Shown here in pieces: positions 4,270 through 43,976 of a stretch of 43,976 nt of DNA. How positions within the stretch are numbered: the stretch's first letter is position 1; every line of letters begins with the position of its first letter. The notes under the pieces were generated by a model that worked only from the letters and a program-made list of their open reading frames with translations, did not search any database and was not told where the DNA came from. This DNA is from a virus: IMG/VR virus record IMGVR_UViG_3300027849_000451, positions 1 through 43,976 of that record. One strand, 5' to 3'. The position numbers and the translations under genes were made by a program.

Positions 4270-4274
4270 AGAAT

Positions 4275-17593: not shown

Positions 17594-17605
17594 ATAACAT
17601 AATAG

Positions 17606-17613
17606 AGTAAATA
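17606..17613 (+). promoter_or_regulatory. Possible late promoter AGTAAATA, 5 bases from ATG
   Basis: AGTAAATA followed by TACAC and ATG 17619 repeats the octamer-N5-ATG geometry, with changes at the first two positions. An overlapping alternative, AATAAATA at 17589-17596 on the metK stop codon, would give a short leader instead. One of the two may be real. Confidence 0.35.
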
Positions 17614-17618
17614 TACAC

Positions 17619-22636: not shown

Positions 22637-22677
22637 GAATCCTCAATCACAATCACAAATCGTTGATACATCTTAAT

Positions 22678-22685
22678 GATAAATA
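22678..22685 (+). promoter_or_regulatory. T4-like late promoter octamer GATAAATA ahead of a ~19 kb operon
   Basis: Exact GATAAATA in the longest gap of the window (22637-22736). Predicted +1 near 22691 gives a ~46-base leader with TTAGGAG (22724-22730) before ATG 22737. No later octamer was found in a gap until 42003. Confidence 0.65.
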
Positions 22686-22736
22686 TAAGAGTAGTTAACT
22701 CTACACACATTATTTAAATAAACTTAGGAGAACAAC

Positions 22737-26534: not shown

Positions 26535-27930
26535 ATTCGGATTCGAATACAATGTCTGCGACACAAAGGAATTCTTTGATCCAGACTTTAAGTATTGCTC
26601 ATTGTTATGGAGCCATATTAGTAACGAGCCGGGCGGTACAGTAAGAACTTGCTGTATAGCAAAGGATAGAATTAAAGACGACCTGGGTAATGATTATAAC
26701 TTGGGCGAACACTCAATGCTTGAAATACTTAACAGTAACACAATGTTTGAAATGAGAAACAGAATACGTGACGGGCAAGACATACACAACTGTGAAACAT
26801 GTTGGGTAGACGAACGTAACGGCAAAGAGTCTAAAAGACAACAGTACAACAACTATTACAAAGAGTGGTACGGTGACGACTGCATTAACTTCCAAGATGA
26901 ACCGCATAGATTAATTGACGTACAGTTAATTTTTGATAACACTTGTAACTTAAAATGTAGAAGTTGTAATACAAACTACAGCAGTAAGTGGAGAGAAGAA
27001 TCCATAGACAGGAACATTCCGTTCTGGGAAACAACTGCTGAAATTAATATGAATGACATAGAGAGAAGTGCGTTCTGGAGGACCATGGATGAATGGACTG
27101 AAGGTGTAATGCGTATGGAGATTATGGGCGGTGAGCCGTTCTATATGAAAGAGTTTAAACAGTTCGTGGACTACTTAATTGAAACAGGTAGGTCAAAGAA
27201 TGTTGCACTAACATTAAGTACTAACGGTACTATTGCTGACAGGGACTTCTTAGCTAAGATGGTTGCCAACTTCAGAGACATAGCATTCAGTGTTAGCATC
27301 GACGGCATAGAAGATAAGTTTACATACTTAAGACATCCAGGCAAGTGGGACGTAGTAAAGGATAACTTAGACTACTATTACGAATTACACAACAGTGACA
27401 ACTCTGTATTCGTTCAGATAACGCACACGGTAACCGCACTAAATATAATGTACTTGCCAGAGTTCCATGAGTACTTCGAGACTACATATCCAAACTTTAA
27501 GATTTGGAATAATGCTGTACATTATCCTAAATGGATATCAGCGCCAGTACTCCCAGCAAAAGCAAAGAAGCTTATTACAGATAAGTTGCTACGACATAAT
27601 TGGTTATCTAAGTATAGAGACGAAGCCAATGCACTAGTAAATTTTATGAACTCGGCACTATATGAAAATGGCGATAGTGTAGTAGAAAGTTTAAAAGGAA
27701 AGTTTGATGCTGACAAGTTAAAGTTCTTTGATGAACGTAGCAGTCAGCAGAAGTGGACGATATTCAAATCTCAAATAGTGGGAGGAGATATATACAGGGA
27801 AGAAAACTTTGTAACAGTTTTCCCTGAACTGTATGACTTAATTAAACATGAGTTTGATTATGATGCAGAATTTGAAGCAGTGTCGACAGCAGGGTTCCTG
27901 CCAGTCAGTCAAGGGGAGTACAGCAATTGA
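26515..27930 (+). CDS. Radical SAM protein 4 with N-terminal twitch-like region
   Basis: A 471-residue protein beginning 20 bases inside the preceding gene. N-terminal cysteines are YCSLLWSH, RTCCIAKDR and CETCWVDE; the core is CNLKCRSC (C144, C148, C151), with SSKW after it as in other members. EIMGGEPFYM is the SAM-binding motif and VSIDGIEDKF is the later strand seen across the set. The stop TGA overlaps the TTG start of the next radical SAM gene, so the two are translationally coupled. Enzyme class is clear; the substrate is not. Confidence 0.9.
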   Translation: MSTKKNRFGFEYNVCDTKEFFDPDFKYCSLLWSHISNEPGGTVRTCCIAKDRIKDDLGNDYNLGEHSMLEILNSNTMFEMRNRIRDGQDIHNCETCWVDERNGKESKRQQYNNYYKEWYGDDCINFQDEPHRLIDVQLIFDNTCNLKCRSCNTNYSSKWREESIDRNIPFWETTAEINMNDIERSAFWRTMDEWTEGVMRMEIMGGEPFYMKEFKQFVDYLIETGRSKNVALTLSTNGTIADRDFLAKMVANFRDIAFSVSIDGIEDKFTYLRHPGKWDVVKDNLDYYYELHNSDNSVFVQITHTVTALNIMYLPEFHEYFETTYPNFKIWNNAVHYPKWISAPVLPAKAKKLITDKLLRHNWLSKYRDEANALVNFMNSALYENGDSVVESLKGKFDADKLKFFDERSSQQKWTIFKSQIVGGDIYREENFVTVFPELYDLIKHEFDYDAEFEAVSTAGFLPVSQGEYSN

Positions 27931-29171
27931 GTAATACATATTGCCCGCTACCTTGGAACCACTTAGCAACACACCCGCACGGTGGAGTTACACTATGTTG
28001 TATAAGTGACCATACTGATGGACTGAACCGAGCAAGGAATTTTAAAGAGGACTATAGTGAGTTCTTTGATTTAAATAAGCAGTCAGTTGAACAACACATG
28101 AACAGTGATTACTATAAAGAAGTTAGACTGCAAATGCTAAACGATGAAAAGCCAAAGGCTTGCATGAGGTGTTACGATGAAGAGGACAAAGGAATTAAGA
28201 GTAAGCGACAACACGAGGCCGAAGTATTTAAGCAGGGTTCCATTGATTGGGCATCCGAACTTACTAGTGCGGACGGGAGCATTCCTATGGATCTTCGTTT
28301 TGTTGAGCTTCGTCTTGGTAATGTGTGCAACGTTAGGTGTCGTACATGTAATCCTGCAAGTAGTTCTAAGTGGTTGGAAGACTATAAAGACATCGTGCAG
28401 AAGGCTGACTTCATCAACAAAGGATACCTAGGACTTAACTTCCCAGAAGATTTTAAGTGGGCAGAGGACGATAACTTCTATGATGAATTATTTGAAGCTT
28501 CACCTAACCTAGAACTATTATATATTAATGGCGGGGAGCCAACATTAATTAAACAACATTGGGCGTACTTACGAAAATTAGTTGACAGTGGCAGAAGCAA
28601 GAACGTTATACTATGGTATAATATTAATTGCACTATGCTACCACCTATTGCTTTAGAACTGTGGCCCGAGTTCAAAGAAGCAAGAATTTGTTTAAGCATT
28701 GATGACCTGGAAGACAGGAATGCTTTTATAAGAACAGGAACTAACTGGAATGCTGTATTAAAAACTATTGATACATTAAAGCAAAATCAAGACAAGTTAG
28801 TTCTACGAATAACACAAACTGTTAGTGCATATAATTATGCAACGTTGCCTGAATTCTTTAAATGGGCAGAGATGAATGGGATAGAGGTTGACATGAACTT
28901 CGTGTATGATCCTGATTACCTAAGTCCTGCGGTTATACCCGCTAAGGCTCGAGAGTTGATACATACAGAATTTAGAGAAGCATTAGGCAATGACCACAAA
29001 CTAGGAACCCTGTTGAGCATGTTTAACAACAGTGATTGGGATGAGTTAAAGTGGGAACAGTTTTGTCGTTATAACGATTTATTAGATAAGAATGATGAGA
29101 GTGACTGGAGACAGGCATTCGGTAAACTTGTAAACAAGGTAGAAGAAAGTGGATATACTAGCATTTACTAG
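27927..29171 (+). CDS. Radical SAM protein 5 with N-terminal twitch-like region (TTG start)
   Basis: A 414-residue protein from TTG 27927, which overlaps the previous TGA and has GGGGAG about 8 bases upstream. The N-terminus is YCPLPWNH, TLCCISDH and CMRCYDEEDKGIKSKR; the core is CNVRCRTC (C134, C138, C141) followed by SSSKW; the SAM motif is YINGGEPTLI. CLSIDDLEDRNAFIRTG is the strand-turn matching VSIDGIEDKF in radical SAM 4. This is among the more compact members of the set. It is followed by the desaturase-like gene with a 23-base overlap. Confidence 0.9.
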   Translation: MSNTYCPLPWNHLATHPHGGVTLCCISDHTDGLNRARNFKEDYSEFFDLNKQSVEQHMNSDYYKEVRLQMLNDEKPKACMRCYDEEDKGIKSKRQHEAEVFKQGSIDWASELTSADGSIPMDLRFVELRLGNVCNVRCRTCNPASSSKWLEDYKDIVQKADFINKGYLGLNFPEDFKWAEDDNFYDELFEASPNLELLYINGGEPTLIKQHWAYLRKLVDSGRSKNVILWYNINCTMLPPIALELWPEFKEARICLSIDDLEDRNAFIRTGTNWNAVLKTIDTLKQNQDKLVLRITQTVSAYNYATLPEFFKWAEMNGIEVDMNFVYDPDYLSPAVIPAKARELIHTEFREALGNDHKLGTLLSMFNNSDWDELKWEQFCRYNDLLDKNDESDWRQAFGKLVNKVEESGYTSIY

Positions 29172-29913
29172 ACCTAAACTCGTAGTGTTAAGATGCTTAA
29201 TGCATCTTGGACTGGCTACGGCTGTGGTACTAGGACCAAGCAACTACTTGTGGATATCACTTGTAGCATACTTTTGGTTTGCCAGTATAGGTAACAGTGT
29301 TGGACAGCACAGATACTTTGCACATAAGACATTTAAGACAAGCAAACTATGGGAACGTATTTTAATTGCTAGTGCTACACTGGCTAGTGTTAGTAGTGTG
29401 TTCGGATACATTGTAACCCATAGAGAACATCATAAGCACACAGACGATGGATTAGACCCCCACAGCCCGCACCATATGAGTACACTCCGTAGTTGGACAC
29501 TGGACTTAACTGATACAGGACGTTGGGACTTGCGTAATGCAAAAGACTGGATAAAGAACAAAGATGTAATGAATGCACACAAATACTTCTTTGCTTATAT
29601 ATTAATATATGTTATAATACTAGCACTCATTGATCCGATGTTAGTAGTGTATGGATATCTAGTACCAGCTAGTTTATGTGTATGGGCAACTGGTGCCTTC
29701 AACACATGGGGACATGGACACGGATTAAAGAGCCTGGGTTATAGGACTTGGGAAACAAAAGACAAAAGTGTTAATCATCATTTAGTTAACTTAATAACTT
29801 TCGGTGAAGGATGGCACAACAATCATCATAACAACCCTGGTGCATGGCATCAAGGTGAGAAGTGGTGGGAATGGGATTTAAACGCATGGATAATAAGATT
29901 AATAAAACAGTAG
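29149..29913 (+). CDS. Fatty-acid/acyl desaturase-like membrane protein (GTG start)
   Basis: A 254-residue protein starting at GTG 29149 inside the preceding gene. Three His boxes are intact: HRYFAH (54-59, HX4H), HREHH (91-95, HXXHH) and WHNNHH (H223, H226, H227), the di-iron ligands of membrane desaturases/hydroxylases. Hydrophobic segments near residues 15-50, 65-85, 145-185 fit four membrane spans. EGWHNNHHNNPGAW is typical of acyl-CoA desaturases of bacteria. Desaturation of host or pathway acyl chains is the likely reaction. It is set between radical SAM 5 and 6, with overlaps on both sides. Confidence 0.88.
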   Translation: MDILAFTRPKLVVLRCLMHLGLATAVVLGPSNYLWISLVAYFWFASIGNSVGQHRYFAHKTFKTSKLWERILIASATLASVSSVFGYIVTHREHHKHTDDGLDPHSPHHMSTLRSWTLDLTDTGRWDLRNAKDWIKNKDVMNAHKYFFAYILIYVIILALIDPMLVVYGYLVPASLCVWATGAFNTWGHGHGLKSLGYRTWETKDKSVNHHLVNLITFGEGWHNNHHNNPGAWHQGEKWWEWDLNAWIIRLIKQ

Positions 29914-31184
29914 AAGAAATAAAGAAGTTAGCAGAAGGTGAAGCGTTCTGTATCCTGCCGTGGATACACATGCACCCTTGGCCCGATGGCAGAGTGTTTA
30001 CATGTTGCTTGAGTGAGCATGACTCACCTATCGGTAACTTGAACGAGATGGACCTAGATGAATGTTACAACAGTGATAACATGAAGTCGTTTAGATTAGA
30101 CATGCTCGACAATAAGAAAGTATCTAACTGTAATAGATGTTATGAGCTAGAAGAAGTAGGACATGATACGTTGCGTAAGAGAAGCAACGATGAATTCATA
30201 TTTGAAAAGTACGGCTTACATGAAGACAAGTCGCCTATTGTACAAAAGACAAAACTGGACGGCAGTTTAGACGAAGTACATTTAACTTACATGGACATCC
30301 GGTTCAGTAATATATGTAACATGCGTTGTAGAACATGCGGTCCTGATTTAAGTAGTCAGTGGTTTGAAGAAGCAGTTGACAGCAAATTTAATAGAACTCC
30401 CGAACAAAAGATATTACAGATAAGAAAAGGTAATACTGCATTCATGGAACAGTTCGATCCGTACTTGCACACAGTAGAGAAAATTTATTGGGCAGGTGGT
30501 GAGCCATTGCTTATGGACGAGCATTGGTACATCATGAACAAGTTAGTTGAGATGGGTAGAACAGATGTACGAATATTTTACAACACTAACTTTAGTAAAC
30601 TAACATATAAGCAAGAAGATGCCGTTGAGCTTTGGAAGAAGTTTGAGCATGTTAGCATCGGTGCTAGTTTAGATGCAGGATGGGAGAAGGGCGAGTACTT
30701 GCGTAAGGGAACTATCTGGTCTGACACAATGGCAAACAGAGAACGCTTAAAGCAAGAACTACCACAACATGACTTTAACATCAGTTGTACTGTTAGTATA
30801 TTTAATGTGTTAGATGTATGCGACTTCTACAGGAAGTTATGCGATATAGAATTTATAGAACCAAAAGACTTTGGAGTTAACATCTTACTAGGTAAGCATG
30901 TACACAGAGCAACAGTATTGCCACTGCACATGAGACAGCGAGCAATAGAACAGATTAAAGAAACGTTAGCATGGATCGAAGGCAAAGACCAAGTAGGTCG
31001 TGCAACAGACACGTTCAACAGTTTACTACAGTTTATGGAAGGTGACGACAGCCACTTGCTATCAGACAGTATGCAGGAAGCAAAAGAGATGGACAGGTTC
31101 AGAGCAGAGACATTGTTTGAAGTGTTCCCTGAGCTGAGCGACATAAGTTCATACTACAATGAAGGTGAACCTTTTGGCGAATAG
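29886..31184 (+). CDS. Radical SAM protein 6 with N-terminal twitch-like region
   Basis: A 432-residue protein from ATG 29886 (28-base overlap with the desaturase gene); ATG 29862 would add 8 residues. N-terminal cysteines are FCILPWIH, TCCLSEH and CNRCYELEE. The core is CNMRCRTC (C144, C148, C151) followed by SSQW, and YWAGGEPLLM is the SAM-binding motif. The region after the core contains EKGEYLRKGTIW, matching the YLRHPGKW/FIRTGTNW block in other members. Enzyme class is clear; substrate unknown. Confidence 0.9.
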   Translation: MDNKINKTVEEIKKLAEGEAFCILPWIHMHPWPDGRVFTCCLSEHDSPIGNLNEMDLDECYNSDNMKSFRLDMLDNKKVSNCNRCYELEEVGHDTLRKRSNDEFIFEKYGLHEDKSPIVQKTKLDGSLDEVHLTYMDIRFSNICNMRCRTCGPDLSSQWFEEAVDSKFNRTPEQKILQIRKGNTAFMEQFDPYLHTVEKIYWAGGEPLLMDEHWYIMNKLVEMGRTDVRIFYNTNFSKLTYKQEDAVELWKKFEHVSIGASLDAGWEKGEYLRKGTIWSDTMANRERLKQELPQHDFNISCTVSIFNVLDVCDFYRKLCDIEFIEPKDFGVNILLGKHVHRATVLPLHMRQRAIEQIKETLAWIEGKDQVGRATDTFNSLLQFMEGDDSHLLSDSMQEAKEMDRFRAETLFEVFPELSDISSYYNEGEPFGE

Positions 31185-32400
31185 ACCAGAACATTTTTGT
31201 ATACTACCTTGGATAAACCAAGAAGCTCGTACTAACGGAGAGATAGGTGTGTGCTGTGTTATGCAGGAGACTGTACCAGACATGAACCTAGCAGATGGCG
31301 CCACACTTAAAGATGCCTGGGAAAGCAAATGGTTAGCAGACTTGAAGGGAGACTTCTTAGCAGGAGAGAAACCTAAGGCATGTTACAACTGCTGGAACGA
31401 AGAAGACGCAGGCATTGATAGTAAACGTTTACGAGAACTTAGAAAGTTTGCACACCACGTGGATAACTTGGAGCATGCCAAACCAAAGAGCATGGATTTA
31501 AAATTAGGAAACATTTGTAATACTAAGTGTAGAATATGTACAGGCTTTGCAAGTAGTCAGTGGGTGCCAGAAGAAATAGAACGTGACGGTGAGTCTAATC
31601 AGTTTGCACAACTGATGGGTAGGCTAGGACGTTGGCCCGAACTAAATGAAAAGTTCTGGGAAGACATAGAAAGTCAAATCGAAGAAGTAGAGAGTTTAGA
31701 ATTCTTTGGCGGTGAGCCGTTCTTAATTAAAAGACATTTCGATATACTACAGACATTAGCAGACAAGGGCAGAGCAAAGGATATAACATTAAGTTATAAT
31801 ACTAATGGTTCTATATACCCTGCACAACATATGGACTTACTTAAACAGTTTAAAGATGTGCAAGTGTTCTTTAGTATAGACGGCACAGGTGATAGGTTTA
31901 ATTATATTAGACACCCACAGCAGTTTGATGAAGTAATGGAAAACTATTGGAAGTTCAAAGCAACAGATTTTATTAGAACAAACATTTTTTATACAGTTAG
32001 TATATTTAATATTATGTATATGGATGAGTTACTAGAGTACCAAAAAGAACATAACATTGAAACTGAAATACATTTCAATATGGTATATGTTCCGCAACAC
32101 ATTAGTCCTAAAGCATTACCTAAGAAAGCCAAAGAAGCCGTTACAGCAAAGTTTAAAGACCATAGCGATCATAGAATACAAAGCACACTAAACTTTATGA
32201 ACCAGGAAGACTACACAGGCTACATGGATGAGTTTGTAAGACAGACTGCATTCAGTGATAGGTATAGAGACGAGAGTATTGCTAGTACCTTCCCTGAGTT
32301 ATACAAGTATGTTAGACCATGGTTCGAGAAAGAAGATGTAATGGCATTACAAGAACAAATGCAATTTTTAAAAGCAGGTAATAAACATGACAAGTTATAG
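31159..32400 (+). CDS. Radical SAM protein 7 with N-terminal twitch-like region
   Basis: A 413-residue protein, ATG 31159, 26-base overlap with the preceding gene. N-terminal cysteines: FCILPWIN, GVCCVMQE, CYNCWNEEDAGIDSKR. The core is CNTKCRIC (C120, C124, C127) followed by SSQW; EFFGGEPFLI is the SAM motif. FSIDGTGDRFNYIRHP is the strand-turn shared with radical SAM 4. MVYVPQHISPKALPKKAKE near the C-terminus matches FVYDPDYLSPAVIPAKARE of radical SAM 5, so these two are close relatives. Confidence 0.9.
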   Translation: MKVNLLANRPEHFCILPWINQEARTNGEIGVCCVMQETVPDMNLADGATLKDAWESKWLADLKGDFLAGEKPKACYNCWNEEDAGIDSKRLRELRKFAHHVDNLEHAKPKSMDLKLGNICNTKCRICTGFASSQWVPEEIERDGESNQFAQLMGRLGRWPELNEKFWEDIESQIEEVESLEFFGGEPFLIKRHFDILQTLADKGRAKDITLSYNTNGSIYPAQHMDLLKQFKDVQVFFSIDGTGDRFNYIRHPQQFDEVMENYWKFKATDFIRTNIFYTVSIFNIMYMDELLEYQKEHNIETEIHFNMVYVPQHISPKALPKKAKEAVTAKFKDHSDHRIQSTLNFMNQEDYTGYMDEFVRQTAFSDRYRDESIASTFPELYKYVRPWFEKEDVMALQEQMQFLKAGNKHDKL

Positions 32401-33688
32401 TAAAACATTCTGTCCTTATCCGTGGATACACATAATGACACAGCCTAGTAGTACTATTAATATATGTTGTGTTGCTACAGGTCAAATTAAAAAGGATGAC
32501 GGTAGCATACTAATGCTAAACAAGGGTGACGATATTTCTACAGTATGGAATAACAATCACTATCGTAAGATTAGAAAGCAAATGATAGAAGGCGAACGTG
32601 TCGATGGTTGCCAACCTTGCTACGAACTAGAGGACTTGGACATACCAAGTTACAGAGAGAACTACATTAAAGACTGGATGGGGTTCCACCGTAATGCAGA
32701 TCAAATAAAAGAAATAATAGACAAGAGTATTGTAAATGATTATGTTGTAGAAGAAGCACCACAGTACTTAGACTTTAGACTAGGAACACTATGTAACTTA
32801 AGATGTAGAATGTGCCAGAGTCAAAACAGCAGTGCAATCTACAAGGAGTTACAAGATGAAGAATTATACACCCAAGAAGAAAGACAGTTTGTCGTGGATA
32901 CAAGTCACTGGGGTGACTTTAGTGATTACACTCAGCCTTGGTTTGATGATCCTGGCTTCCTTTCAACAGTCGAAGAATGGTTGCCTAATGTCAATAGGCT
33001 ATACTTCACCGGCGGTGAGCCCACTATTATACAGCGAGTGTATTGGATCCTCAACAAGTGTATCGAACTCGGAATAGCAAAAGATATTGACTTAGTGTTT
33101 AACAGTAACATGACTAACATACAGCCTAGGTTCTTAGAAACCATAGGACAGTTTAGAGATGTATTAATGTGTTTAAGTGTAGACGGCTATGCTCAATACA
33201 ACGATTACATTAGAAGTGGAAGCACATGGAGTGTTATCGACAAGCACATCAGAGACTATGCTGATTCAGAAGTAGTGGGTAACATTTTGTTTAGTCCTGT
33301 TATACAAATATATAACATACTAAACATCACAGACTTACTTGACTATGCTGAAGAGATATCTAATGAGAGTGGACGTAGGATTGATATTAGTTTCTTATTA
33401 AACAACTATCCAAAGTGTTTAGACATTAGAAACTTACCACAGAACATACGTGACGTTGCTGTACAGAGATTAGAGTCTTGGTCAGCAACAAGCAAGTACT
33501 TTGATGCAGACGAACGTAACAAGCAGACTGTGTTAGGATTAATTAAAGCATTGAAAGAATCGTACAACGATGACAGTGAACAACAGATGGAAGTATTCAA
33601 ACAGTACACGTTACTACTTGACAGCAAACGTGACCAGAGTATTAAAGAAAGTATACCTGAACTATGGGAGTTGCTAGATTGGACGTAA
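32387..33688 (+). CDS. Radical SAM protein 8 with N-terminal twitch-like region
   Basis: A 433-residue protein, 14-base overlap with the preceding gene. N-terminal cysteines: FCPYPWIH, NICCVATG, CQPCYELED. The core is CNLRCRMC (C136, C140, C143) followed by SSAI rather than SS-x-W, a small departure from the other members. YFTGGEPTIIQ is the SAM motif and CLSVDGYAQYNDYIRSG the following strand-turn. It is the last of the five closely packed radical SAM genes in this operon, ahead of the SGNH-hydrolase-like gene. Confidence 0.9.
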   Translation: MTSYSKTFCPYPWIHIMTQPSSTINICCVATGQIKKDDGSILMLNKGDDISTVWNNNHYRKIRKQMIEGERVDGCQPCYELEDLDIPSYRENYIKDWMGFHRNADQIKEIIDKSIVNDYVVEEAPQYLDFRLGTLCNLRCRMCQSQNSSAIYKELQDEELYTQEERQFVVDTSHWGDFSDYTQPWFDDPGFLSTVEEWLPNVNRLYFTGGEPTIIQRVYWILNKCIELGIAKDIDLVFNSNMTNIQPRFLETIGQFRDVLMCLSVDGYAQYNDYIRSGSTWSVIDKHIRDYADSEVVGNILFSPVIQIYNILNITDLLDYAEEISNESGRRIDISFLLNNYPKCLDIRNLPQNIRDVAVQRLESWSATSKYFDADERNKQTVLGLIKALKESYNDDSEQQMEVFKQYTLLLDSKRDQSIKESIPELWELLDWT

Positions 33689-34414: not shown

Positions 34415-34633
34415 ATGAGTAAAGACGAAATGAATGGATTAGGTAAGACAACTAAGGTCGTAGACCAAGGTGACTTATACGGCAATCCAATAGTAGACGA
34501 AACAAAGAAACCAAACACAGTACAGGATGTGGATCTAGACCTTGATGACGTTGAGCTTTCGGAAGAGGAAGAAGCGATGTTAAAGAAGAAACTTGATAAT
34601 ATCAGGAAGAACGATCCCTTTATATATAGATGA
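34415..34633 (+). CDS. Small acidic protein
   Basis: A 72-residue protein starting one base after the previous stop and ending in an ATGA overlap with the carbamoyltransferase gene. It is strongly acidic in the middle (DVDLDLDDVELSEEEEAML) with a short Lys/Arg-rich end (KKKLDNIRKNDPFIYR). The N-terminus is Gly/Lys-rich and probably disordered. There is no Cys and no leader-core pattern that would make it an obvious RiPP precursor. Function unknown; an adaptor for a neighbouring enzyme is possible. Confidence 0.65.
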   Translation: MSKDEMNGLGKTTKVVDQGDLYGNPIVDETKKPNTVQDVDLDLDDVELSEEEEAMLKKKLDNIRKNDPFIYR

Positions 34634-36198
34634 GAATATTAGGAATTAGCAGTATGTTTCATGACGCAAGTACTTGTGTTATTGAAGACGGGCAGATATT
34701 ATTTGCTGGACATGCCGAACGATATAGTCGTGTAAAGAACGACCCGTTTATAAACCAGAAACTTATGAAGGACACATTGAAACACGGCTTGCCTGATGTT
34801 ATTGTTTTCCACGAGAGCAGTAAACTAAAGCAGAAGCGTAGACTGAAACAAATGACTTGGAGTAGTATTAAGTCTGTGTTTACAGAACCTACTGCGGAAG
34901 AATGGATTGCAAAATACTATCCACAGCTAAAAGGTATTCCAGTAACTAACTGTCTACATCATGAGAGTCATGCCGCGGCAGGAGTGCTAACTAGTGACTT
35001 CGACGAAGCGGCTGTAATGACTATCGATGCTATCGGTGAAGAACAAACAGCAACAATTTATAAATGGTCTACACAACGAGGCGGTTCAACTAGGCTGGAC
35101 TTAATGCACGAAGTTAAGTTTCCAAATAGTTTAGGATTGTTCTATAGTGCTGTAACAGGTGCTGTAGGTTTAAAGCCTATGGAAGATGAATACATACTAA
35201 TGGGCATGGCGGCATACGGCAAGCCTCTGTATGTAAATAAAATTAACAACGAATTATTTAAACACCCACTAACTGAAACACGGCATGGACAAATAGACGG
35301 CGATGTAAGAACTGCTATGGAAACTATTGACATGAGCAAAGGATTGCCTAAGAACTTTATGAGTGCTGAAGCATTAGCAGACGAGCAAGTACAGTTTGAC
35401 TTAGCCGCAAGTGCCCAGGTGGTGTGTGAACAACGTATTATGGCTTACGCAAAGTTAGCCAAAGAGTATACACAAAGTAATAACCTTGTGTTTATGGGAG
35501 GGTGTGCATTAAACTGTGTAGCAAACGCTAGACTATATGACCTCTATCAGAACGTACACATTATGCCTAACCCAGGTGACGCAGGCTCCAGTTTAGGAGC
35601 CGCGGCACTTTATTATTATAAAGCCACAGGTAACAGAGTTAATTGGGAAACACCTTTCTTAGGTTATACAATTAACGGAGCCTGGCCCAAAGAAAAGTTC
35701 CTTGCAAGTTTACGCAAAGGAGAAATATTTGGCGTTGCAAATGGTGCCGCAGAGTTCGGACCAAGAGCATTAGGCAACAGGAGTTTGTTTGCTGATCCTA
35801 GAGGGGAACTAATAAAGGATCAAGTAAATGAAATTAAACGTAGACAAAAGTTCAGACCCTTTGCTCCAATTGTTCTAGAGGAACATGCAAGTGATTGGTT
35901 TGAAATGCCGGGAGGCAAACTCGACTCACCTTACATGCAGTTCATTGCTAAGTGTAAGAGACCAAACGAGATACCTGCAGTTGTACATGGGGATGGTACA
36001 AGCAGAGTGCAAACAGTTAATAGGAAGAGTCATCCAGAACTATACCATGCTATGAGACAATGGCATGCTGAGTCCGGGTGCCCTATTGTTCTTAATACAA
36101 GTTTAAATATTAAAGGACAGCCGATTGTGAACACAGCAAAAGAGGCAGAGGAATTTGCCAAACACTATAAGGTCCCTGTACATGTACGAGATGACTAA
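34630..36198 (+). CDS. NodU/CmcH-family carbamoyltransferase
   Basis: A 522-residue protein (family usually 550-600). MRILGISSMFHDASTCVIEDG is the N-terminal ASKHA-fold start, CLHHESHAAA (H110, H111, H114) carries the His motif that binds metal/ATP, and MTIDAIGE follows. The C-terminal YrdC-like domain has GVANGAAEFGPRALGNRSL, KFRPFAPIVLEEH and CPIVLNTSLNIKGQPIV, all conserved blocks. These enzymes add a carbamoyl group, made from carbamoyl phosphate and ATP, to sugars or antibiotics. Homologues occur in other marine phages to my knowledge. It likely decorates the glycan made by this operon. Confidence 0.93.
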   Translation: MRILGISSMFHDASTCVIEDGQILFAGHAERYSRVKNDPFINQKLMKDTLKHGLPDVIVFHESSKLKQKRRLKQMTWSSIKSVFTEPTAEEWIAKYYPQLKGIPVTNCLHHESHAAAGVLTSDFDEAAVMTIDAIGEEQTATIYKWSTQRGGSTRLDLMHEVKFPNSLGLFYSAVTGAVGLKPMEDEYILMGMAAYGKPLYVNKINNELFKHPLTETRHGQIDGDVRTAMETIDMSKGLPKNFMSAEALADEQVQFDLAASAQVVCEQRIMAYAKLAKEYTQSNNLVFMGGCALNCVANARLYDLYQNVHIMPNPGDAGSSLGAAALYYYKATGNRVNWETPFLGYTINGAWPKEKFLASLRKGEIFGVANGAAEFGPRALGNRSLFADPRGELIKDQVNEIKRRQKFRPFAPIVLEEHASDWFEMPGGKLDSPYMQFIAKCKRPNEIPAVVHGDGTSRVQTVNRKSHPELYHAMRQWHAESGCPIVLNTSLNIKGQPIVNTAKEAEEFAKHYKVPVHVRDD

Positions 36199-36490
36199 CA
36201 CCAGCGGAATATATTCAGCAAAGGAACTTTCAGATATGTCACGTGAACCGTGGCAGTGGGATCCTTCATTAAGTCCAGAAGAATGCATGATGTGGAAAAT
36301 GAAAAACAAATGCCATGTATGTGGTATTGATCCTCGGTTCCACAGAGACGACTGTGAGTTTAGTAGTATACAATTGCACTGGGCTTATACTAGTATAGAA
36401 CGAGAACTAGAAAATGCAATGCCACTCCCTTCTCTAAGTGATGTATCGAGTGACCGACTAATAGCTACTATTAACGAGCTTAACAAATAA
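36191..36490 (+). CDS. Small CxxC protein, possible zinc binding
   Basis: A 99-residue protein if it starts at ATG 36191 (8-base overlap); ATG 36182 is an alternative. NKCHVCGIDPRFHRDDCEF has two Cys as CxxC, then a His and a Cys, which could bind zinc. Before it, WQWDPSLSPEECMMWKMKN is a helical segment with another Cys. The C-terminal half is a mixed helix. The stop TAA ends on the first base of the next gene's ATG. I do not recognise the family; a nucleic-acid or protein-binding role is possible. Confidence 0.6.
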   Translation: MTNTSGIYSAKELSDMSREPWQWDPSLSPEECMMWKMKNKCHVCGIDPRFHRDDCEFSSIQLHWAYTSIERELENAMPLPSLSDVSSDRLIATINELNK

Positions 36491-39400
36491 TGTACGATAT
36501 ATTTTACATTGGTGAGAACACATCACTAAAAGAAAGGCTACCGTTTGCCAGTCAGGTTAACGATGTAGACAGCATTAAATCAAATACAAGAATGTACTGG
36601 ATAATTGATTCCAATACTAAAATAACCAATTGGGAAATTTTCGACTTTAAACCTGATACTCACACAGAGAAGTATCAGCATATATGGAAGTGGAACCAAG
36701 AGAATTACGGCGGGGTAAGTCTATTACCTAAACGTGAGAACACAGAAACTGTATGGCATAACAAAGTAGTATGTAAGAAATACTTCGACACATTGTTTGA
36801 AGATGCACCAGGGAATTACTTTGCAGAGAATCCTAACAGTACACACGTTTGGTGTGTGGATAGTGAATATGTCTTAGGGGAAGATATTGATTGGGCACCA
36901 GGGAACTTCGAACCCGATTTCATTCACAGCTTTCACTTACGTGGACAGCTAGAACATAAGTATCCTAAACAAGAAGGTGGCGTTAAGTTGTTCCCACGTG
37001 ATTGGGAGTCAGCTGATACAAAGTATCACAAGTTCCTAGATACCAATGTTGCATACCCAGTGTACTACACAAAGGATGTGGAACGTTATGCACAACGTAA
37101 TACATTCCAGACTGACTATGTTTGGTTAGTAGACGCACAGTACATGCCTAACTTGCACACATTCGATTGGGTACCTAATCCGTTTGAAGCTGATATGATA
37201 CATGCATTCAAAATGCCGTACCAGTTACAAGAGAAGTATCCAGATGCTATGGGTGGTATTAGATTAGTACCGATGGCATGGAGTAAGGCAGAGACTAAGA
37301 TACACAAAGCATGTCCAGTAGAAGACGAAGCCTACGATGTATTTTATGTAGACGAGGATGAGTTTACAGCAGACACATACAGTGAGTATGCTGAACGTAG
37401 TAAAACGGAATGGTTCTGGATAGTAGATAGGGATCATATGTTTAATGGTAAACTATTATATGTACCTAGTGTACACGAACGTGAATACATACATGTGTTT
37501 AAGATACCTGGACACTTAGAAGAACGTTATCCACTAGACGTAACAGACGCATGGGACAACCGATGCGGTGGTGTGCGGTTAGTACACAAAGACTTTGATA
37601 TCACAAAGCATAAGCACCAAGAAGATATATGTCCTGTACGGTATGATATATTTTATGCAGACGATATTAATGATTATGAGACTCCAGCAAGGAAGAGCAG
37701 AACGAAAATGTTCTGGCTTGTAGACAGTGAACATCAAATTAATGAGGATTTTAAATATGTACCACAACGATATGACCAGAAGTGCATACAGGTATTCAAG
37801 TTTCCGAATGACTTGGAACACAAATACCCCAGAGCAGTTACAAATATCAGCGACAACAGAGCAGGAGGTATCAAACTTGTACCGGTCAATGGGAACGGCG
37901 ATACCAAATACAACGACCAAAGCCCCGTCGGTGGTAAGACATACCCCATCAGATTTACTGACACATCAGATGAACCACTTACTGAAGATAGTTGGATAGT
38001 ACCTACAGCGTTTGAAGATGCTGTTAGTGTTATACCGTGGCAACCTAACGTGTTTGAAAAGAACACACAGCATGTATTTGCTAACGGACTATTAAAATGG
38101 ATGCCAGTTAATTGGAACGGAGATGTTAAAGAGCATGACTTCACTCCAATAGTAATGGATATAAAGTTTGAGAAGTTTGAATCGTACGAGCTCGGGTTGT
38201 TACTAAGCAGTTTTAATTGGTTCTGGGTAGTTGATCCAGACGTAACTGTACTAGAGACATTCGATTTTGACTTCCAACCTAATGTGTTTGACGAAGGTAA
38301 GTCACATGTATGGCAGAAACTAAATCCAATTACCAATAAGCAGTATGACTATGGTGGTGTTAGTTTAAGGCATAAGGATGAGAAGAAAGGTAGACCGAAG
38401 TATATCAGAGAACCTGCTTGTATGCAACAAGAGTTTCCGGTGTACCATGTACAGCCTAATGAACTAGTAGGTGGCTTAGACGGCGTCTACGAGAGTCTAG
38501 CACTACAAACAAGCACCAGCATGATGTGGGTAGTAGATGGCGCAGTTGCGTTAGACACAGACTTTGACTTTAGTTACTACCCTACGCATTATGACAACGA
38601 TGTTGTTCATGTATGGGAACATGAAGGTAGTAGTAGAGCAACAGGTGTTAGACTATTGCCAACTAATATAAAATATACTAGTGCAGAGCAAATTATAGAG
38701 AACAAGTTTGATCGACTTAAAGAGATGCCTAAGGTAGCGAGTAAAGAACCTACGTGGCCCTGTGAACAATTAACAGATGTAACTGTTGCGGGAGTACAAA
38801 AAATACTAGACAAGCATAGCGATACACATTATGTTTGGACAGTCGATCCTGATGTAGAACAAGACAACGACATTATAGCAGAAAGCATTATACCACATGA
38901 ACAGTTCATCGACAGTGTGCATGTTTGGAAAACATCTGTAGGTGCAGGTGGTCTTAGACTATGGCCCACAACATATGATACCAGCAACCTAACTGATGAA
39001 CAAGTGCTAACCAGTAGCATACCTGGACAATTAATTATAGATGCTGTGGCAGGAGAACATAAAGATTATGCTGTGTGTTATTTGAACAGCAATAGTAGTT
39101 TGCTAGAACAGATAAATCAATTCAGTGACCAATGTGAAAGTAATATGTTTTGGGTAGTTGATCCACATATTGAACTAATGGCTGACTGGACGTTTGATTA
39201 TGTGCCTAACAGATGGGAAGGACAAGTTGTACACATATGGCAACATGAGGGTAGCAGTAAGCACAGCGGGGTTAAGTTAATGCCCAAGGGTACTTACAGT
39301 AAGCAAGAGGTTAAAGAAAACAGTTATGTTAAACTAAAAGAAATAACTAGTGTGGCAAGTAAAGATCCTATATGGCCCATTGAACAATTAGAAAGCATGA

Positions 39401-41685
39401 CTAGTAAAGAGATACAAGGCGTATTAGCCAAGCACAATGATGTAAGTTATGTGTGGACTGTAGATCCGGACATCGAATTAGACGATAATATCATTAAACA
39501 AAGTATTATTCCACATACAGATAACAGTTTAGTTGTTCATGTATGGAAAAGAACAGACAATGAAGGGCTAGTTATAGGACATGGAGGGCTTAGACTATGG
39601 CCTACATCATATGATGCTAGTCAGTTAAGTGATGACCAAGTACTAACATGCAGTATTCCAGGACAATTAATACTAGATGCCGTAGCAGGAGAACAAAAAG
39701 AATACAGTATTTGTTATTTAAATAATGAATCTGCTATACTAGAACAGATAAACGAGTACAGTAGTCAGTGTGAAAGCAATATGTTCTGGGCTGTTGATCC
39801 TTATGTTGAACTAGCAAAGGGTTGGAAGTTTGATTATGTGCCTACTAAGTGGGAGGAGCATGTAGTTCATATATGGCAACATGAAGGTAGCAGTAAGCAA
39901 AGCGGAGTTAAGCTAATGCCTAATAGGACATATACTAAACAAGAGGTTAAGGACAATAGTTATGTTAAACTAAAAGAGATCTATAACATAGCAAGTAGAG
40001 ATCCTATATGGCCTGTAGAACAATTACATGACCTTACTAGTGAGGAAGTACAAGCAATCATAGCCAAGCACAAAGACGTAGGCTATGTGTGGACAGTAGA
40101 TCCAGACATAGACTTAGATGCAGACATTATTGCACAAAGTATTATGCCACACACTGACAACAGCAACATCGTTCATGTGTGGAAGAGAACAGACTCAGAC
40201 GGCTTAGTTATCGGACATGGCGGCATAAGGTTATGGCCTACAAGTTATGATGCTAGTCAGTTAAGTGATGAGCAAGTGTTGACTTGTAGTATACCTGACC
40301 AGTTAATATTAAATGCTACTGGTGGTGCACAAAAAGAATACCCTATCTTCAATCTAGATGCAGAAGAAGATATACTAGAACAACTTGCAGACTTTGATAA
40401 TAGATGTGAGAGTGCTATGTACTGGGTCGTCGATCCATGGGTTACTGTAGCAACAGACTTTAAATTTGATTTTATTCCTACTAAGTGGGAAGAAGATGCA
40501 GTACATGTGTTCCAAGACTCTAACGAAGACTTCAGAAGTATTAGATTAATACCACGTGGAACGTTTAATCTCATGCAGTACGACATTAAACAAATAGTTA
40601 ATAACAGTTTTAATACACTTAAACAGGTTTATACCGTAGCAACGTTACCCACATACTGGAAACAATACACGTTAAACACAGACATGGGTACACATAAACA
40701 ACATTTAGAACACATTCAAGCAGAGAATGATGATTGGTTCTACACAATAGATGATGATGTACAGCCGTTAGAGCAGTTTGTATTCGCACATACACCTCAA
40801 CTAGACAGTTTATACAAGACTCATGTGTGGCAAAGAACCAATTCACGCACAGGTTTAACACAAAGTTACGGTGGAGTTAGGCTATGGCCCAACCCTATTA
40901 GCTCAGTTATGAGTGAAGTAACCTCTGAAAAGATAAGATTAAACAAAATGGATGCAGGCAAACTACAGTATGTTAAAGAGCCAGCAAGTATTATAACACC
41001 TTATACAGTGTTCATGCTCAGTTATAAGGAAGATGAATCAATGGTTCAAGCACACATAGATGTTATTCAAGCAAAGGATGGTATTGATGTTGTGCATGTT
41101 AGAGGTGTAGAAGGTATCTTTAATGCACACAAGGCATGTGCTACACAGTGCAATACTAAAATGTTCTGGGTAGTTGATGCTGATGCACTAGTAAGCGATG
41201 ACTTTAACTTTGAATACATACCAGATGTGTATGACCAAGACGTTGTGCATGTGTGGAACAGTCGTAATCAAGTTACAGGCGAAGAGTACGGCTATGGTGG
41301 AGTTAAACTGTTTAACACACAGCAAGTAGCAGATGCTACATCGTGGGGACTGGACTTTACAACAGGACTTAGCAAACGTTTTAAATCAATGCCGCAGGTT
41401 AGTTGTGTAACAAACTTTAATGTAGATGCACACAGCACATGGCGTAGTGCGTTTAGAGAGTGTGTTAAGTTAACACTGAGTGTTGATCCAGATGCTCAAC
41501 GTAGATTAAGCAGTTGGTTACATCCACAGCCAGATGCACAGTTTGTTGCAGAAGCAGAAGCAGGCGCTGAGGCAGGCTATCAGTTCGCTTTAAAGAACAG
41601 AGATGACCCTGCTGTATTAAATAACATAAACGATTATACTTGGCTGGAGACGGAATGGACAAAGTTGAAAAGTATCTCAGAGTAA
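36490..41685 (+). CDS. Giant 1731-residue protein made of ~16 glycosyltransferase-core-like repeats
   Basis: The protein consists of about 16 units of the pattern W-x-VD-x-[DE], a hydrophobic strand, P-x-x-[WY]-x-x-x-x-VHVW, then GGVRLxP. The Trp (or aligned residue) falls at about 37, 121, 212, 310, 409, 502, 579, 680, 783, 888, 989, 1100, 1201, 1312, 1418 and 1560, a spacing near 100. Units with intact DxD (DRD, DPD, DDD, DAD) alternate with units with DPH, DPY or DPW. The last unit (EGIFNAHKAC, FWVVDADALV, GYGGVKLF) and the C-terminus align with the DGD glycosyltransferase at 13093. It has no signal peptide. Whether it is a multi-site transferase or a repeat scaffold is unknown. Overlaps both neighbours by 1 and 31 bases. 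Confidence 0.85.
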   Translation: MYDIFYIGENTSLKERLPFASQVNDVDSIKSNTRMYWIIDSNTKITNWEIFDFKPDTHTEKYQHIWKWNQENYGGVSLLPKRENTETVWHNKVVCKKYFDTLFEDAPGNYFAENPNSTHVWCVDSEYVLGEDIDWAPGNFEPDFIHSFHLRGQLEHKYPKQEGGVKLFPRDWESADTKYHKFLDTNVAYPVYYTKDVERYAQRNTFQTDYVWLVDAQYMPNLHTFDWVPNPFEADMIHAFKMPYQLQEKYPDAMGGIRLVPMAWSKAETKIHKACPVEDEAYDVFYVDEDEFTADTYSEYAERSKTEWFWIVDRDHMFNGKLLYVPSVHEREYIHVFKIPGHLEERYPLDVTDAWDNRCGGVRLVHKDFDITKHKHQEDICPVRYDIFYADDINDYETPARKSRTKMFWLVDSEHQINEDFKYVPQRYDQKCIQVFKFPNDLEHKYPRAVTNISDNRAGGIKLVPVNGNGDTKYNDQSPVGGKTYPIRFTDTSDEPLTEDSWIVPTAFEDAVSVIPWQPNVFEKNTQHVFANGLLKWMPVNWNGDVKEHDFTPIVMDIKFEKFESYELGLLLSSFNWFWVVDPDVTVLETFDFDFQPNVFDEGKSHVWQKLNPITNKQYDYGGVSLRHKDEKKGRPKYIREPACMQQEFPVYHVQPNELVGGLDGVYESLALQTSTSMMWVVDGAVALDTDFDFSYYPTHYDNDVVHVWEHEGSSRATGVRLLPTNIKYTSAEQIIENKFDRLKEMPKVASKEPTWPCEQLTDVTVAGVQKILDKHSDTHYVWTVDPDVEQDNDIIAESIIPHEQFIDSVHVWKTSVGAGGLRLWPTTYDTSNLTDEQVLTSSIPGQLIIDAVAGEHKDYAVCYLNSNSSLLEQINQFSDQCESNMFWVVDPHIELMADWTFDYVPNRWEGQVVHIWQHEGSSKHSGVKLMPKGTYSKQEVKENSYVKLKEITSVASKDPIWPIEQLESMTSKEIQGVLAKHNDVSYVWTVDPDIELDDNIIKQSIIPHTDNSLVVHVWKRTDNEGLVIGHGGLRLWPTSYDASQLSDDQVLTCSIPGQLILDAVAGEQKEYSICYLNNESAILEQINEYSSQCESNMFWAVDPYVELAKGWKFDYVPTKWEEHVVHIWQHEGSSKQSGVKLMPNRTYTKQEVKDNSYVKLKEIYNIASRDPIWPVEQLHDLTSEEVQAIIAKHKDVGYVWTVDPDIDLDADIIAQSIMPHTDNSNIVHVWKRTDSDGLVIGHGGIRLWPTSYDASQLSDEQVLTCSIPDQLILNATGGAQKEYPIFNLDAEEDILEQLADFDNRCESAMYWVVDPWVTVATDFKFDFIPTKWEEDAVHVFQDSNEDFRSIRLIPRGTFNLMQYDIKQIVNNSFNTLKQVYTVATLPTYWKQYTLNTDMGTHKQHLEHIQAENDDWFYTIDDDVQPLEQFVFAHTPQLDSLYKTHVWQRTNSRTGLTQSYGGVRLWPNPISSVMSEVTSEKIRLNKMDAGKLQYVKEPASIITPYTVFMLSYKEDESMVQAHIDVIQAKDGIDVVHVRGVEGIFNAHKACATQCNTKMFWVVDADALVSDDFNFEYIPDVYDQDVVHVWNSRNQVTGEEYGYGGVKLFNTQQVADATSWGLDFTTGLSKRFKSMPQVSCVTNFNVDAHSTWRSAFRECVKLTLSVDPDAQRRLSSWLHPQPDAQFVAEAEAGAEAGYQFALKNRDDPAVLNNINDYTWLETEWTKLKSISE
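36595..41300 (+). repeat. About 16 tandem ~100-codon protein repeats
   Basis: Coding repeats inside the giant gene, with unit spacing of 77-111 codons and one of 142. Conserved core: W-[VIT]-VD, P-[TN]-x-[WY], VHVW/HIW and GGxRLxP. Early units have diverged strongly; unit 6 (near residue 502) has lost the VD-x-D. See the second repeat entry for the young part. Confidence 0.8.
38521..40960 (+). repeat. Higher-order tandem repeat of ~212 codons (4 copies)
   Basis: The aligned codons for MMW/MFW/MYW start at 38521, 39145, 39781 and 40417, giving periods of 624, 636 and 636 bases. Copies 2 and 3 are nearly identical in protein over long stretches (VVHIWQHEGSSK, SGVKLMP, YVWTVDPDI, GGLRLWPTSYDASQLSD), so the last duplications are recent. 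Each copy holds two ~100-residue units, one with DPD and one without. Confidence 0.85.
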
Positions 41686-41804
41686 GAATAGATATGCTGT
41701 GTGAAGAACGACTTAAGAACGATAACGAAGTTGCTCACATGGTGCTCGACAGTTCGGTAAGTGAGCTAGTCACAGTGTTAGAGATGATAGAGAGATTACA
41801 GTGA
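41655..41804 (+). CDS. 49-residue helical protein
   Basis: ATG 41655 lies in the end of the giant gene with GGAG at 41646-41649 and a 5-base spacing. It runs 49 codons to TGA 41802-41804, which overlaps the GTG start of the next gene. The product (MDKVEKYLRVRIDMLCEERL at the start, LVTVLEMIERLQ at the end) is one or two amphipathic helices. It fills an otherwise empty 115-base gap in an operon without gaps, which supports it as a real gene. Function unknown. Confidence 0.65.
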   Translation: MDKVEKYLRVRIDMLCEERLKNDNEVAHMVLDSSVSELVTVLEMIERLQ

Positions 41805-41983
41805 GACGAGGTAAGCCTAGAGCACCCAGTTTGGTTAAGTCACCTTGTATCAAAGTGTGTAAGTTTGATGACAGCGGAGAGTATTGTGTTGGCTGTTTTA
41901 GAACTGCTACAGAGATGCGTGACTGGTACACAATGACTGATGCAGAAAAGAATACAGTATTAGAGAGAATACATTTAGGTTAA
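41801..41983 (+). CDS. DUF1289-like cysteine protein (GTG start)
   Basis: A 60-residue protein from GTG 41801 (GTGA overlap with the preceding stop). SPCIKVCKFDDSGEYCVGC, followed by FRTATEMRDW, is the typical DUF1289 signature: SPC-x3-C, a short acidic loop, C-x-x-C, R-T-x-x-E-[IM]-x-x-W. Four Cys suggest a metal or Fe-S site. The domain is widespread in Proteobacteria and present in some phages; its role is not established. It is the last gene of the long operon. Confidence 0.85.
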   Translation: MRRGKPRAPSLVKSPCIKVCKFDDSGEYCVGCFRTATEMRDWYTMTDAEKNTVLERIHLG

Positions 41984-42002: not shown

Positions 42003-42010
42003 GATAAATA
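42003..42010 (+). promoter_or_regulatory. T4-like late promoter octamer GATAAATA
   Basis: Exact GATAAATA. Five bases (TAAGT) separate it from ATG 42016, so the predicted +1 is the A of the ATG. The upstream CTTTTTTGACT resembles the sequence before the octamer at 8051. The T tract is preceded by only a 4-bp stem, so it is at best a weak terminator. Confidence 0.7.
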
Positions 42011-42015: not shown

Positions 42016-42531
42016 ATGCGTTCACTTATGCTATTTGCATCAATATTATTTTCTATTACAACCTTCGCAACAGACCTAACACCCAGCCAGAAACAATTTA
42101 TTGTCTGGGGAGAACCTTGTTGCTACTCAGCAGAAATTATCGAAGATGTTCTTGCACAACAACATGTTGACACATTTCAACCCAAGGTTATTTTAGACTT
42201 ACCACCGTTTATAGAACCAGCAACTAAATTGCAGTGGGCAATGTTTTATACCCTACAAATATTAGACATATACTCAACAGATAGAGCAATACAATATAGT
42301 TGCGTTAAAGAAGTTAATCCTTTACTAGGCAAAACACCGACATCAACAGAGATAATAGCACTGAAAGTAATTCTGATTGGTCCTGCATTATATTATGCAC
42401 ATAAGCATGACGTAACAATAACAGAAACGGATTTACAGCTATCAAATTTGGTAATAGGGGCTGTGGTTGCTAATAACTTTGACGTATATTCTCAAGCAAA
42501 AAAGCGAGACGACTGTATTAAGATACGATAA
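42016..42531 (+). CDS. Exported/membrane protein of unknown function
   Basis: A 171-residue protein. The N-terminus MRSLMLFASILFSITTFATD reads as a signal peptide, with cleavage likely after TFA (about residue 18). A later region ILDIYSTDRAIQYSCVKEVN then PLLGKTPTSTEIIALKV, followed by a hydrophobic VILIGPALYYAH and LSNLVIGAVVANNF, resembles the DUF5658-type membrane domain (ENPLLG-like turn between two helices). No leader is predicted before ATG, since the late octamer sits 5 bases upstream. It may act in the envelope during late infection; function unknown. Confidence 0.7.
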   Translation: MRSLMLFASILFSITTFATDLTPSQKQFIVWGEPCCYSAEIIEDVLAQQHVDTFQPKVILDLPPFIEPATKLQWAMFYTLQILDIYSTDRAIQYSCVKEVNPLLGKTPTSTEIIALKVILIGPALYYAHKHDVTITETDLQLSNLVIGAVVANNFDVYSQAKKRDDCIKIR

Positions 42532-42534
42532 ATA
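42527..42534 (+). promoter_or_regulatory. T4-like late promoter octamer GATAAATA
   Basis: Exact GATAAATA spanning the end of the preceding gene's stop codon. GTACT (5 bases) separates it from ATG 42540; predicted +1 is the A of that ATG. Confidence 0.7.
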
Positions 42535-42539: not shown

Positions 42540-43976
42540 ATGAAATGGCTATATAGCGGATGGGCTGTGGCTGTTAGTATTGTACTTCTTACCTTACTAA
42601 AAATTGCAGACCCAACACCAGTACAAAGTTTACGCAGTCAAACATTTGACGCATATCAGCAACTCGACGAAGTTAAGCAAAGCAACGAAGTTGTTGTGTT
42701 AAACATCGGTGAACGAAGTTTACAACAGTGGGGACAATGGCCATGGCCAAGACAGAACATAGCACAACTAGTATCGGATTTGAGGACGAAGAACGCTGGA
42801 ATAATTGGTTTAACGATTTTGTTTCCAGAAACGGACCGATTTGGCGGGGACGCAGTTTTGTCAAGTTGGATCTCGGACAACGGAGTGGTTTTGTCCCAGA
42901 CCCCATCTGGCAGAGGAATAAAGAGTACAGGTCCTCATATTGGTACAGCAACGATAGGCCCAGTATCCGCTACGGACTACTTGCTGACATGGCCGAATCT
43001 CGTAACGAATATTGAAGTACTAGAGAAGTCTGCGGCAGGCATAGGCGTAGTAGCAAGTGCTCCACAACCAGATAACCAAACACGAACATATCCATTAGCA
43101 GTTGGCGTTGAGGGGAAAATATACCCTAGCTTTGCTATTGAGATGCTTAGAGTATACACTAGCAAGCCTAGCTACTATTTAAAGACATCTGAGATAGGCG
43201 TACAAGAGTTTGCCGTGCCACCGTTTGACCCAATAGTAACTACCCCAACTGGTACAGCATATATACGTTTTAATAATACTTTCGAAGAACACGAATACAT
43301 AGATATAAACAGTTTACCTGACTTAGGTGGAAAGTTTGTTATTGTGGGTGTTAGTGCAGAAGGCGTTGCCAATCCGGTACCCACACCTAGAGGCAACGTA
43401 TTACCACAGCTTATACAAGCGTCTATGCTACAGAATTTTATAGATGGTAGTAACATCACTCGTAGCGAGCTATCGTTGCTTACAGAGCTTCTGTGTGCGT
43501 TCTTGAGCATGTTACTAATAGGCTATGCAATGTATCGTACACCTGCGTGGGCAGGATTGCTAACAACCGTTGCTATTATAAGCGGAATTGTGTATTATAG
43601 CATTTATTCTTACACAGCAAACTTAGTTTTGTTTGATGCTACATTTGCAGTGATAGCAAGTTTCTTAATTTTTACGCAGGCAGGGTTTAATAACTTCTGG
43701 ATACAGTTTAAATTAAGATCAGAAATACAGAAACAATTTGCTGGATATGCTTCACCTACTGTGGTGCGTATGCTACAAGAGAATCCAGACTTAATTAAAC
43801 AAGGCATGAAGAAAGAAGTTAGTATATGCTTTTCAGACTTACGTGGCTTTACTCCACTAGGTGAGAGCTTTGGCGATGATGTACAGGGCTTAACAAAAAT
43901 GATGAATGAGTATATGGATGCTATTACACAACCTATACTTGATGCAGACGGCATGGTGATTAAATATATCGGCGAT
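42540..43976 (+). CDS. CHASE2-domain class III adenylate/guanylate cyclase, 3'-truncated by window edge
   Basis: A frame of 479 codons open to the last base of the window. The N-terminus (KWLYSGWAVAVSIVLLTLLK) is a membrane span. The next part has the CHASE2 signature: VVLNIGERSLQQWGQWPWPR, then a helix and IIGLTILFPETDRFGGD. Three hydrophobic spans follow at about 313-385. SICFSDLRGFTPL then starts the class III cyclase domain with metal-binding D433. The frame ends at KYIGD, whose D479 fits the second metal-binding Asp; the rest of the catalytic domain lies outside. Such proteins convert ATP or GTP to cAMP or cGMP in response to periplasmic signals. Completeness of the catalytic core cannot be judged here. 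Confidence 0.9.
   Translation, partial: MKWLYSGWAVAVSIVLLTLLKIADPTPVQSLRSQTFDAYQQLDEVKQSNEVVVLNIGERSLQQWGQWPWPRQNIAQLVSDLRTKNAGIIGLTILFPETDRFGGDAVLSSWISDNGVVLSQTPSGRGIKSTGPHIGTATIGPVSATDYLLTWPNLVTNIEVLEKSAAGIGVVASAPQPDNQTRTYPLAVGVEGKIYPSFAIEMLRVYTSKPSYYLKTSEIGVQEFAVPPFDPIVTTPTGTAYIRFNNTFEEHEYIDINSLPDLGGKFVIVGVSAEGVANPVPTPRGNVLPQLIQASMLQNFIDGSNITRSELSLLTELLCAFLSMLLIGYAMYRTPAWAGLLTTVAIISGIVYYSIYSYTANLVLFDATFAVIASFLIFTQAGFNNFWIQFKLRSEIQKQFAGYASPTVVRMLQENPDLIKQGMKKEVSICFSDLRGFTPLGESFGDDVQGLTKMMNEYMDAITQPILDADGMVIKYIGD

Follow-up and report, generated by a model that had tools for sequence, protein, structure and literature searches.

An 'adenylate cyclase' encoded beside curli and FecR genes has already been published for pelagiphages (Wittmers 2022, PMC9599517). 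In the isolates Melnitz and HTVC008M, the gene order is CsgF-CsgG-curlin-FecR-curlin-like-cyclase, with the FecR and curlin domains assigned by Pfam. The gene analysed here lies at the 3' end of a 43,976-base virus fragment in IMG/VR, and the whole of this stretch is called the window below. The gene type is known; four features are apparently new, namely the swapping of catalytic halves, a late control that is probably leaderless, a catalytic type with Ser in place of Asn, and the missing receptor.

The gene encodes a CHASE2-class III nucleotidyl cyclase and occupies positions 42540..43976 on the + strand, where the 5' 479 codons of ~685 are present and the reading frame is open at the contig end. 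The match to phrog_35576 spans all 479 residues (E 4.7e-109). The first transmembrane helix (residues 7-23; 42558..42608, +) was placed using hydropathy and an AlphaFold2 model of L005, a full-length relative 90% identical to the window part of the cyclase. A CHASE2 domain (PF05226; residues 15-325; 42582..43514, +), predicted to be periplasmic, scored over the cut-off (E 1.1e-38 / 2.2e-36), and three transmembrane helices follow in the L005 model (residues 312-400; 43473..43739, +), the last entering a cytoplasmic linker; one helix before and three after the domain is the layout of a CHASE2 sensor. The linker and the start of the class III cyclase catalytic domain (43734..43976, +) were located by alignment with full-length relatives, the domain opening at about residue 421 (FSDLRGFT ... 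KYIGD) and being cut by the contig end. The window's cyclase stretch by itself is too short to score for Guanylate_cyc (PF00211), which is over the cut-off in full-length L005 (E 3.7e-17, residues 423-606), L031, and L058. The L005 model (pLDDT 86.5) runs from a transmembrane helix through a mixed alpha/beta CHASE2 domain, three transmembrane helices, and the cyclase core to three C-terminal helices. Its core matched Pseudomonas aeruginosa CyaB (3r5g; TM-score by target 0.89, rmsd 2.1) and also Spirulina CyaC in structure comparison. The CHASE2 domain, the transmembrane helices, and the start of the catalytic domain bear out the first-pass annotation, which had described a membrane sensor joined to a class III cyclase.

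A T4-type late promoter box, GATAAATA, is found at 42527..42534 (+), sharing bases with the preceding gene's stop codon, and is followed by 5 nt and then the ATG at 42540. In T4, the late promoter is a box of 8 bp located roughly one helical turn 5' of the transcription start (PMC2988020), so the predicted +1 would be the A of the cyclase ATG or a neighbouring base. TAAATA stands exactly 5 nt before the ATG of an ORF five times in the window (0.36 per other gap), 11 times in HTVC008M (112 kb examined; 0.72 per other gap), and seven times in other regions of related contigs (0.38). The window starts with this geometry are 4275, 8064, 17619, 42016, and 42540; the TAAATA before the ORF at 42016 (42005..42010, +) belongs to a second leaderless-type late promoter. 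Upstream of the cyclase, TAAATA was kept at the exact 5-nt spacing in 30 of 40 distinct sequences. In the 35 upstream sequences not ending in GAATG, on which bits were computed, the box columns held 0.9-1.8 bits and the flanks about 0.1, with variable sequence further upstream; a NATAAATA box is conserved at promoter distance, as in a T4-type late gene. All 11 sites in HTVC008M fall on annotated gene starts, including those of CsgF, the cyclase, tape measure, DNA end protector, head completion, baseplate, and tail completion genes, and the late assignment is supported because the geometry coincides with the baseplate, tape-measure, DNA-end-protector, CsgF, and cyclase starts of this phage. In the related contigs, all seven sites fall in the stretches that follow the cyclase (L167/L168) and none is in the 60 kb upstream of curli. 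The late octamer at 42527 with leaderless geometry, noted in the first-pass annotation, is real given the gap-5 enrichment and the conserved box columns, and expression of the cyclase is probably late and leaderless. Leaderless geometry as a general T4-like trait was ruled out using T4 and S-PM2, which have one gap-5 site each, neither on an annotated start. A literature search, incomplete in coverage, found no report of the TAAATA-N5-ATG geometry. Late promoters of pelagimyophages were not predictable by earlier authors (PMC7029224), and the gap-5 rule offers a simple finder of late genes in these phages.

The explanation judged probable on balance is that the window comes from a large T4-like marine myovirus with a late membrane cyclase, probably cAMP-making, that reports envelope or curli state. 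Transcription dependent on gp55 would start on the cyclase start codon late in infection, and the periplasmic CHASE2 domain would read an envelope signal, most likely from FecR/curli components or from the state of the envelope. The transmembrane bundle would carry the signal to a dimeric cyclase, which would make a cyclic nucleotide, most likely cAMP, and this would act on a target late in infection, perhaps to tune how much surface fibre is made or when lysis occurs. A late sigma factor resembling gp55 was found in related contigs only, among them a 340-kb contig of a relative. Against this explanation stand the Ser at the transition-state Asn position of the type-A enzymes described below (a change usually lowering activity), the lack of a PF00027 receptor in 13 phage records and its near-absence from the SAR11-related family sampled, the window's lack of any FecR or curli gene in 42.5 kb upstream, and a window catalytic core that is present only in part.

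A more specific role was outlined by Wittmers 2022 (PMC9599517), namely that the cyclase is a dedicated regulator of phage curli (type VIII secretion), with FecR and CHASE2 sensing the fibre or pore and cAMP adjusting curli; this is held here as a tentative possibility. It is favoured by the CsgF-CsgG-curlin-FecR-curlin-cyclase order in many relatives as well as isolates, by a matching order in a bacterial chromosome, and by FecR, which all 17 tested relatives with 4.3 kb or more of upstream sequence carry (15 of the 17 also have CsgG); the tested relatives without FecR have 3 kb or less upstream. However, curlin, FecR, CsgG, and CsgF gave no convincing tblastn match in the 42.5 kb upstream of the window cyclase (two short matches to the curli/FecR queries in the window had E 0.004 and 0.025), and a FecR profile search of the window gave no match, so the CsgF, CsgG, curlin, and FecR genes upstream of the cyclase that mark the pelagiphage curli/FecR/AC module were not found within the window. 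A dedicated curli regulator is also disfavoured by the island genes, up to 9.4 kb of them, between FecR and cyclase in relatives (distance about 1.6 to 9.4 kb), by the cyclase having its own promoter, none of the gap-5 type having been seen ahead of CsgF when two contigs of the jumbo group were inspected, and by the 13 phage records examined, where no cyclic-nucleotide receptor to act on curli was found. An ORF of 1074-1077 aa without family match lies between curli/FecR and cyclase in L039, L040, and L048-L051.

The bacterial order is that of L085, a Caulobacteraceae MAG contig in which CsgF-CsgG-curlin-curlin-FecR-CHASE2 cyclase follow one another at 992-7046; a peptidase-like and then a TonB-receptor-like ORF, by reading of the sequence, come after the cyclase. 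A FecR gene next to a CHASE2 cyclase gene is a recurring arrangement in alphaproteobacteria. In the abstract of PMC9599517, FecR and cyclase are stated not to lie within bacterial curli operons; from the L085 operon it follows, contrary to that statement, that they can belong to one. The cellular CsgF-CsgG-curlin-FecR-cyclase operon is apparently new.

Where relatives have curli/FecR, the window has radical-SAM/SPASM and sugar-modification genes upstream of the cyclase, and two of its ORFs belong to cluster 19, a family found inside the curli region of L023/L027-L030. Either an island has grown between curli and cyclase in the window phage, or curli has been lost. Because none of the genes was found in the 42.5 kb, the sensor may work without FecR/curli, or those genes may be located past the contig end. 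Window positions 14246-33688 contain eight related ORFs, of which most score as radical SAM and several have SPASM; with an adjoining S-adenosylmethionine synthetase gene (16493-17593), they form a possible peptide- or sugar-modifying island. A nodulation-type carbamoyltransferase (34630-36198), a UDP-glucose dehydrogenase (22737-24032), and a phosphomannomutase-like gene (8416-9111) are putative surface-glycan modification genes. A 1731-aa ORF at 36490-41685 had no Pfam or PHROG match and is partly related (about 30%) to the window ORF at 13093-14097, with several matching places, as if repeats.

The catalytic half of the cyclase has a history separate from that of the sensor. L005 and Melnitz are 35% identical in the sensor but 81% in the catalytic half, which shows a swap; the sensor and catalytic values are 72% and 37% for L005 and L058, and 80% and 41% for L005 and L031. 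In a sliding-identity comparison, the switch falls at about residue 385-400, immediately after the last transmembrane helix. At least 8 changes are required to explain how the three catalytic types are distributed over a tree of 48 distinct sensors; the well-supported branches demand a minimum of 6 for type A and likewise for type B. When bacterial sequences were included, the tree of the sensor and that of the catalytic half placed the phage rows differently. The catalytic halves have been exchanged six times or more within a single sensor lineage, which is apparently a new observation. Over about 1 kb of sensor sequence, L017 and L031 show 100% nucleotide identity, and their catalytic halves are unrelated; this may be a very recent swap or an assembly chimera, and the pair was not taken as sole proof of swapping because one of the two could be a chimera.

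The cyclic-nucleotide-binding receptor domain PF00027 was found in none of 13 phage records. Among 60 genomes from a SAR11-related family, 2 had it and 58 did not, and class III cyclases were also present in 2 of the 60, one of them being L122 itself in a phage-like context; the family is that of the Pelagibacter MAG holding L122 and may not include the window phage's host. The receiver screen covered PF00027 and class III cyclases. L084, L122, and L127, filed as Pirellulales, Pelagibacter, and Rickettsiales MAGs, look like phage, with genes related to those of Melnitz and HTVC008M. The SAR11 bacteria that a known relative infects apparently have no standard receptor for the signal, and the lack of PF00027 in phages and most SAR11-related genomes is apparently new. 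A tRNA search of the window for a hint of the host found none. The earlier suggestion that the phage may alter host cAMP/cGMP late in infection, or sense periplasmic conditions, is no more than plausible; for SAR11-related hosts, an alteration of host cAMP signalling is unlikely because cyclic-nucleotide-binding proteins and class III cyclases are mostly absent (2/60 each). A circuit private to the phage was also considered, in which the late leaderless cyclase would signal in receptor-less hosts and be read by a phage or host protein, the catalytic halves being traded and the swapped halves possibly differing in product or output under a constant envelope sensor; this is regarded as rather unlikely.

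Both metal Asp residues (433 and 479) and Lys475 are present in the window sequence itself, and D433, K475, D479, and R560 are invariant across 81 full-length phage relatives. The second substrate residue and the transition-state residues are beyond the contig end and, for the window, were read from relatives. Asp549/Ser556 occurs in 39 of the 81 (type A), including the window's nearest relatives and Melnitz, and Ser or Thr549 with Asn556 in the other 42; the transition-state Asn is thus Ser in all type-A relatives and kept in the rest, with an invariant Arg. Reading the full catalytic core, a check proposed in the first-pass annotation, was possible through these relatives, and the metal Asp, Lys, and Arg residues are kept, but the closest ones have Ser at the transition-state Asn position; of the missing catalytic residues that the first-pass annotation named as refuting it, a single one is thus affected. 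The enzyme of the window clade could on this account be a weak or dead cyclase retained for nucleotide-binding signalling or as a dimer partner, as the substitution in 39/39 type-A relatives would suggest. That the remaining catalytic residues are invariant and the catalytic half is under purifying selection makes this quite unlikely. Between the window and L005 cyclases, dN is 0.07 and dS 0.53, and other pairs gave similar ratios in both halves (dN/dS about 0.1 in the sensor as well as in the catalytic half), indicating purifying selection on the gene. In addition, Ma1120 of M. avium, which has Ala in place of the transition-state Asn, is active, and Asn put there nearly abolishes its activity (PMC4215837), so Ser556 is no proof of lost function. 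For an active enzyme, as in the favoured explanation, the predicted product is a cyclic nucleotide, probably cAMP because of the Lys together with the Asp/Thr/Ser pair.

Directly 5' of the cyclase is a gene for a DUF5658-like protein of 171 aa (42016..42531, +; E 4e-5, just under the cut-off), preceded by a small ORF of 60 aa (41801..41983, +) common to the window and L005. A homologue of the 171-aa protein holds the same place in many relatives, although this neighbour is not constant. The frequency of this neighbour and the match of PADLOC PycC models to the catalytic domain would fit anti-phage signalling turned to superinfection exclusion, with a Pycsar-like pyrimidine cyclase and a neighbouring effector, but PycC matches are expected of any class III cyclase and no TIR or other effector family was recognised among the scanned neighbours. 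PycC enzymes are not known as CHASE2 sensors. A Pycsar defence cyclase, having generic matches only, was rejected as very improbable.

The 80 IMG/VR relatives kept are 63-90% identical to the window cyclase, and in nearly all of them the genes 3' of the cyclase are on the opposite strand (convergent). A 208-aa unknown protein, a Nudix protein, a T4 gp15-type tail sheath stabiliser (phrog_11196, PF16724), and the virion structural protein phrog_11591 recur after the cyclase. The isolate homologues are 44% (Melnitz) and 32% (HTVC008M) identical over the window part, and in five isolate genomes, the cyclase adjoins baseplate/tail genes. On the sequence evidence, the cyclase is a phage gene, because relatives run on into T4 gp15 and virion structural genes and not into a bacterial chromosome; the latter had been named in the first-pass annotation as what would speak against a phage gene, and T4-type tail/structural genes are there instead. 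A bacterial contig, or a chimera in which a bacterial signalling gene was joined to phage sequence, is hardly credible: although the window is a fragment without a capsid gene and CHASE2 cyclases are mostly bacterial, about 80 viral contigs carry the cyclase with conserved tail genes adjoining (which rules out a bacterial origin), the five isolates agree, and the last three window genes match relatives.

CHASE2-type phage cyclases are widespread in the sea. The tie of the cyclase to the late programme, its modular traded catalytic half, and the missing obvious receptor provide testable handles. If the cyclase is active, an unrecognised cyclic-nucleotide target would be expected in some of the ocean's most abundant infections because PF00027 is missing from the phages examined and most SAR11-related genomes.

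Among known systems, the pelagiphage 'adenylate cyclase' (HTVC008M AGE60353, Melnitz QZI95054; PMC9599517) is a full-length homologue with the same CHASE2-cyclase layout, and the position between curli/FecR genes and structural genes is shared with the pelagiphage module. Unlike the pelagiphages, the window belongs to a different and probably jumbo group (a 340-kb contig of a relative carries a diverged gp23), has no curli/FecR within 42.5 kb upstream, and has a cyclase that possesses a late promoter of its own, with an island between it and curli. The alphaproteobacterial CHASE2 class III cyclases beside FecR (L085 from Caulobacteraceae, Bradyrhizobium, Thalassospira) have the same domain order, the catalytic residues seen in types B and C of the phages, and, in L085, CsgF/CsgG/curlin as well, but they are only about 30-34% identical to L005, and the Asp/Ser catalytic pair was seen in no sampled bacterial row except L084, itself in a phage-like context. 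P. aeruginosa CyaB (3r5g), Spirulina CyaC (1wc1), and Ma1120 share the fold and the metal, Lys, and Arg residues and differ in the sensor domains; Ma1120 likewise is without the Asn and active, with Ala where the type-A phage enzyme has Ser. The late promoters of T4 and cyanophages (TATAAATA / NATAAATA) are alike in box sequence and in the gp55-type factor, whereas the boxes of T4 and S-PM2 are mostly 23-29 nt before the ATG and the gap of 5 in the window puts the predicted +1 on the ATG.
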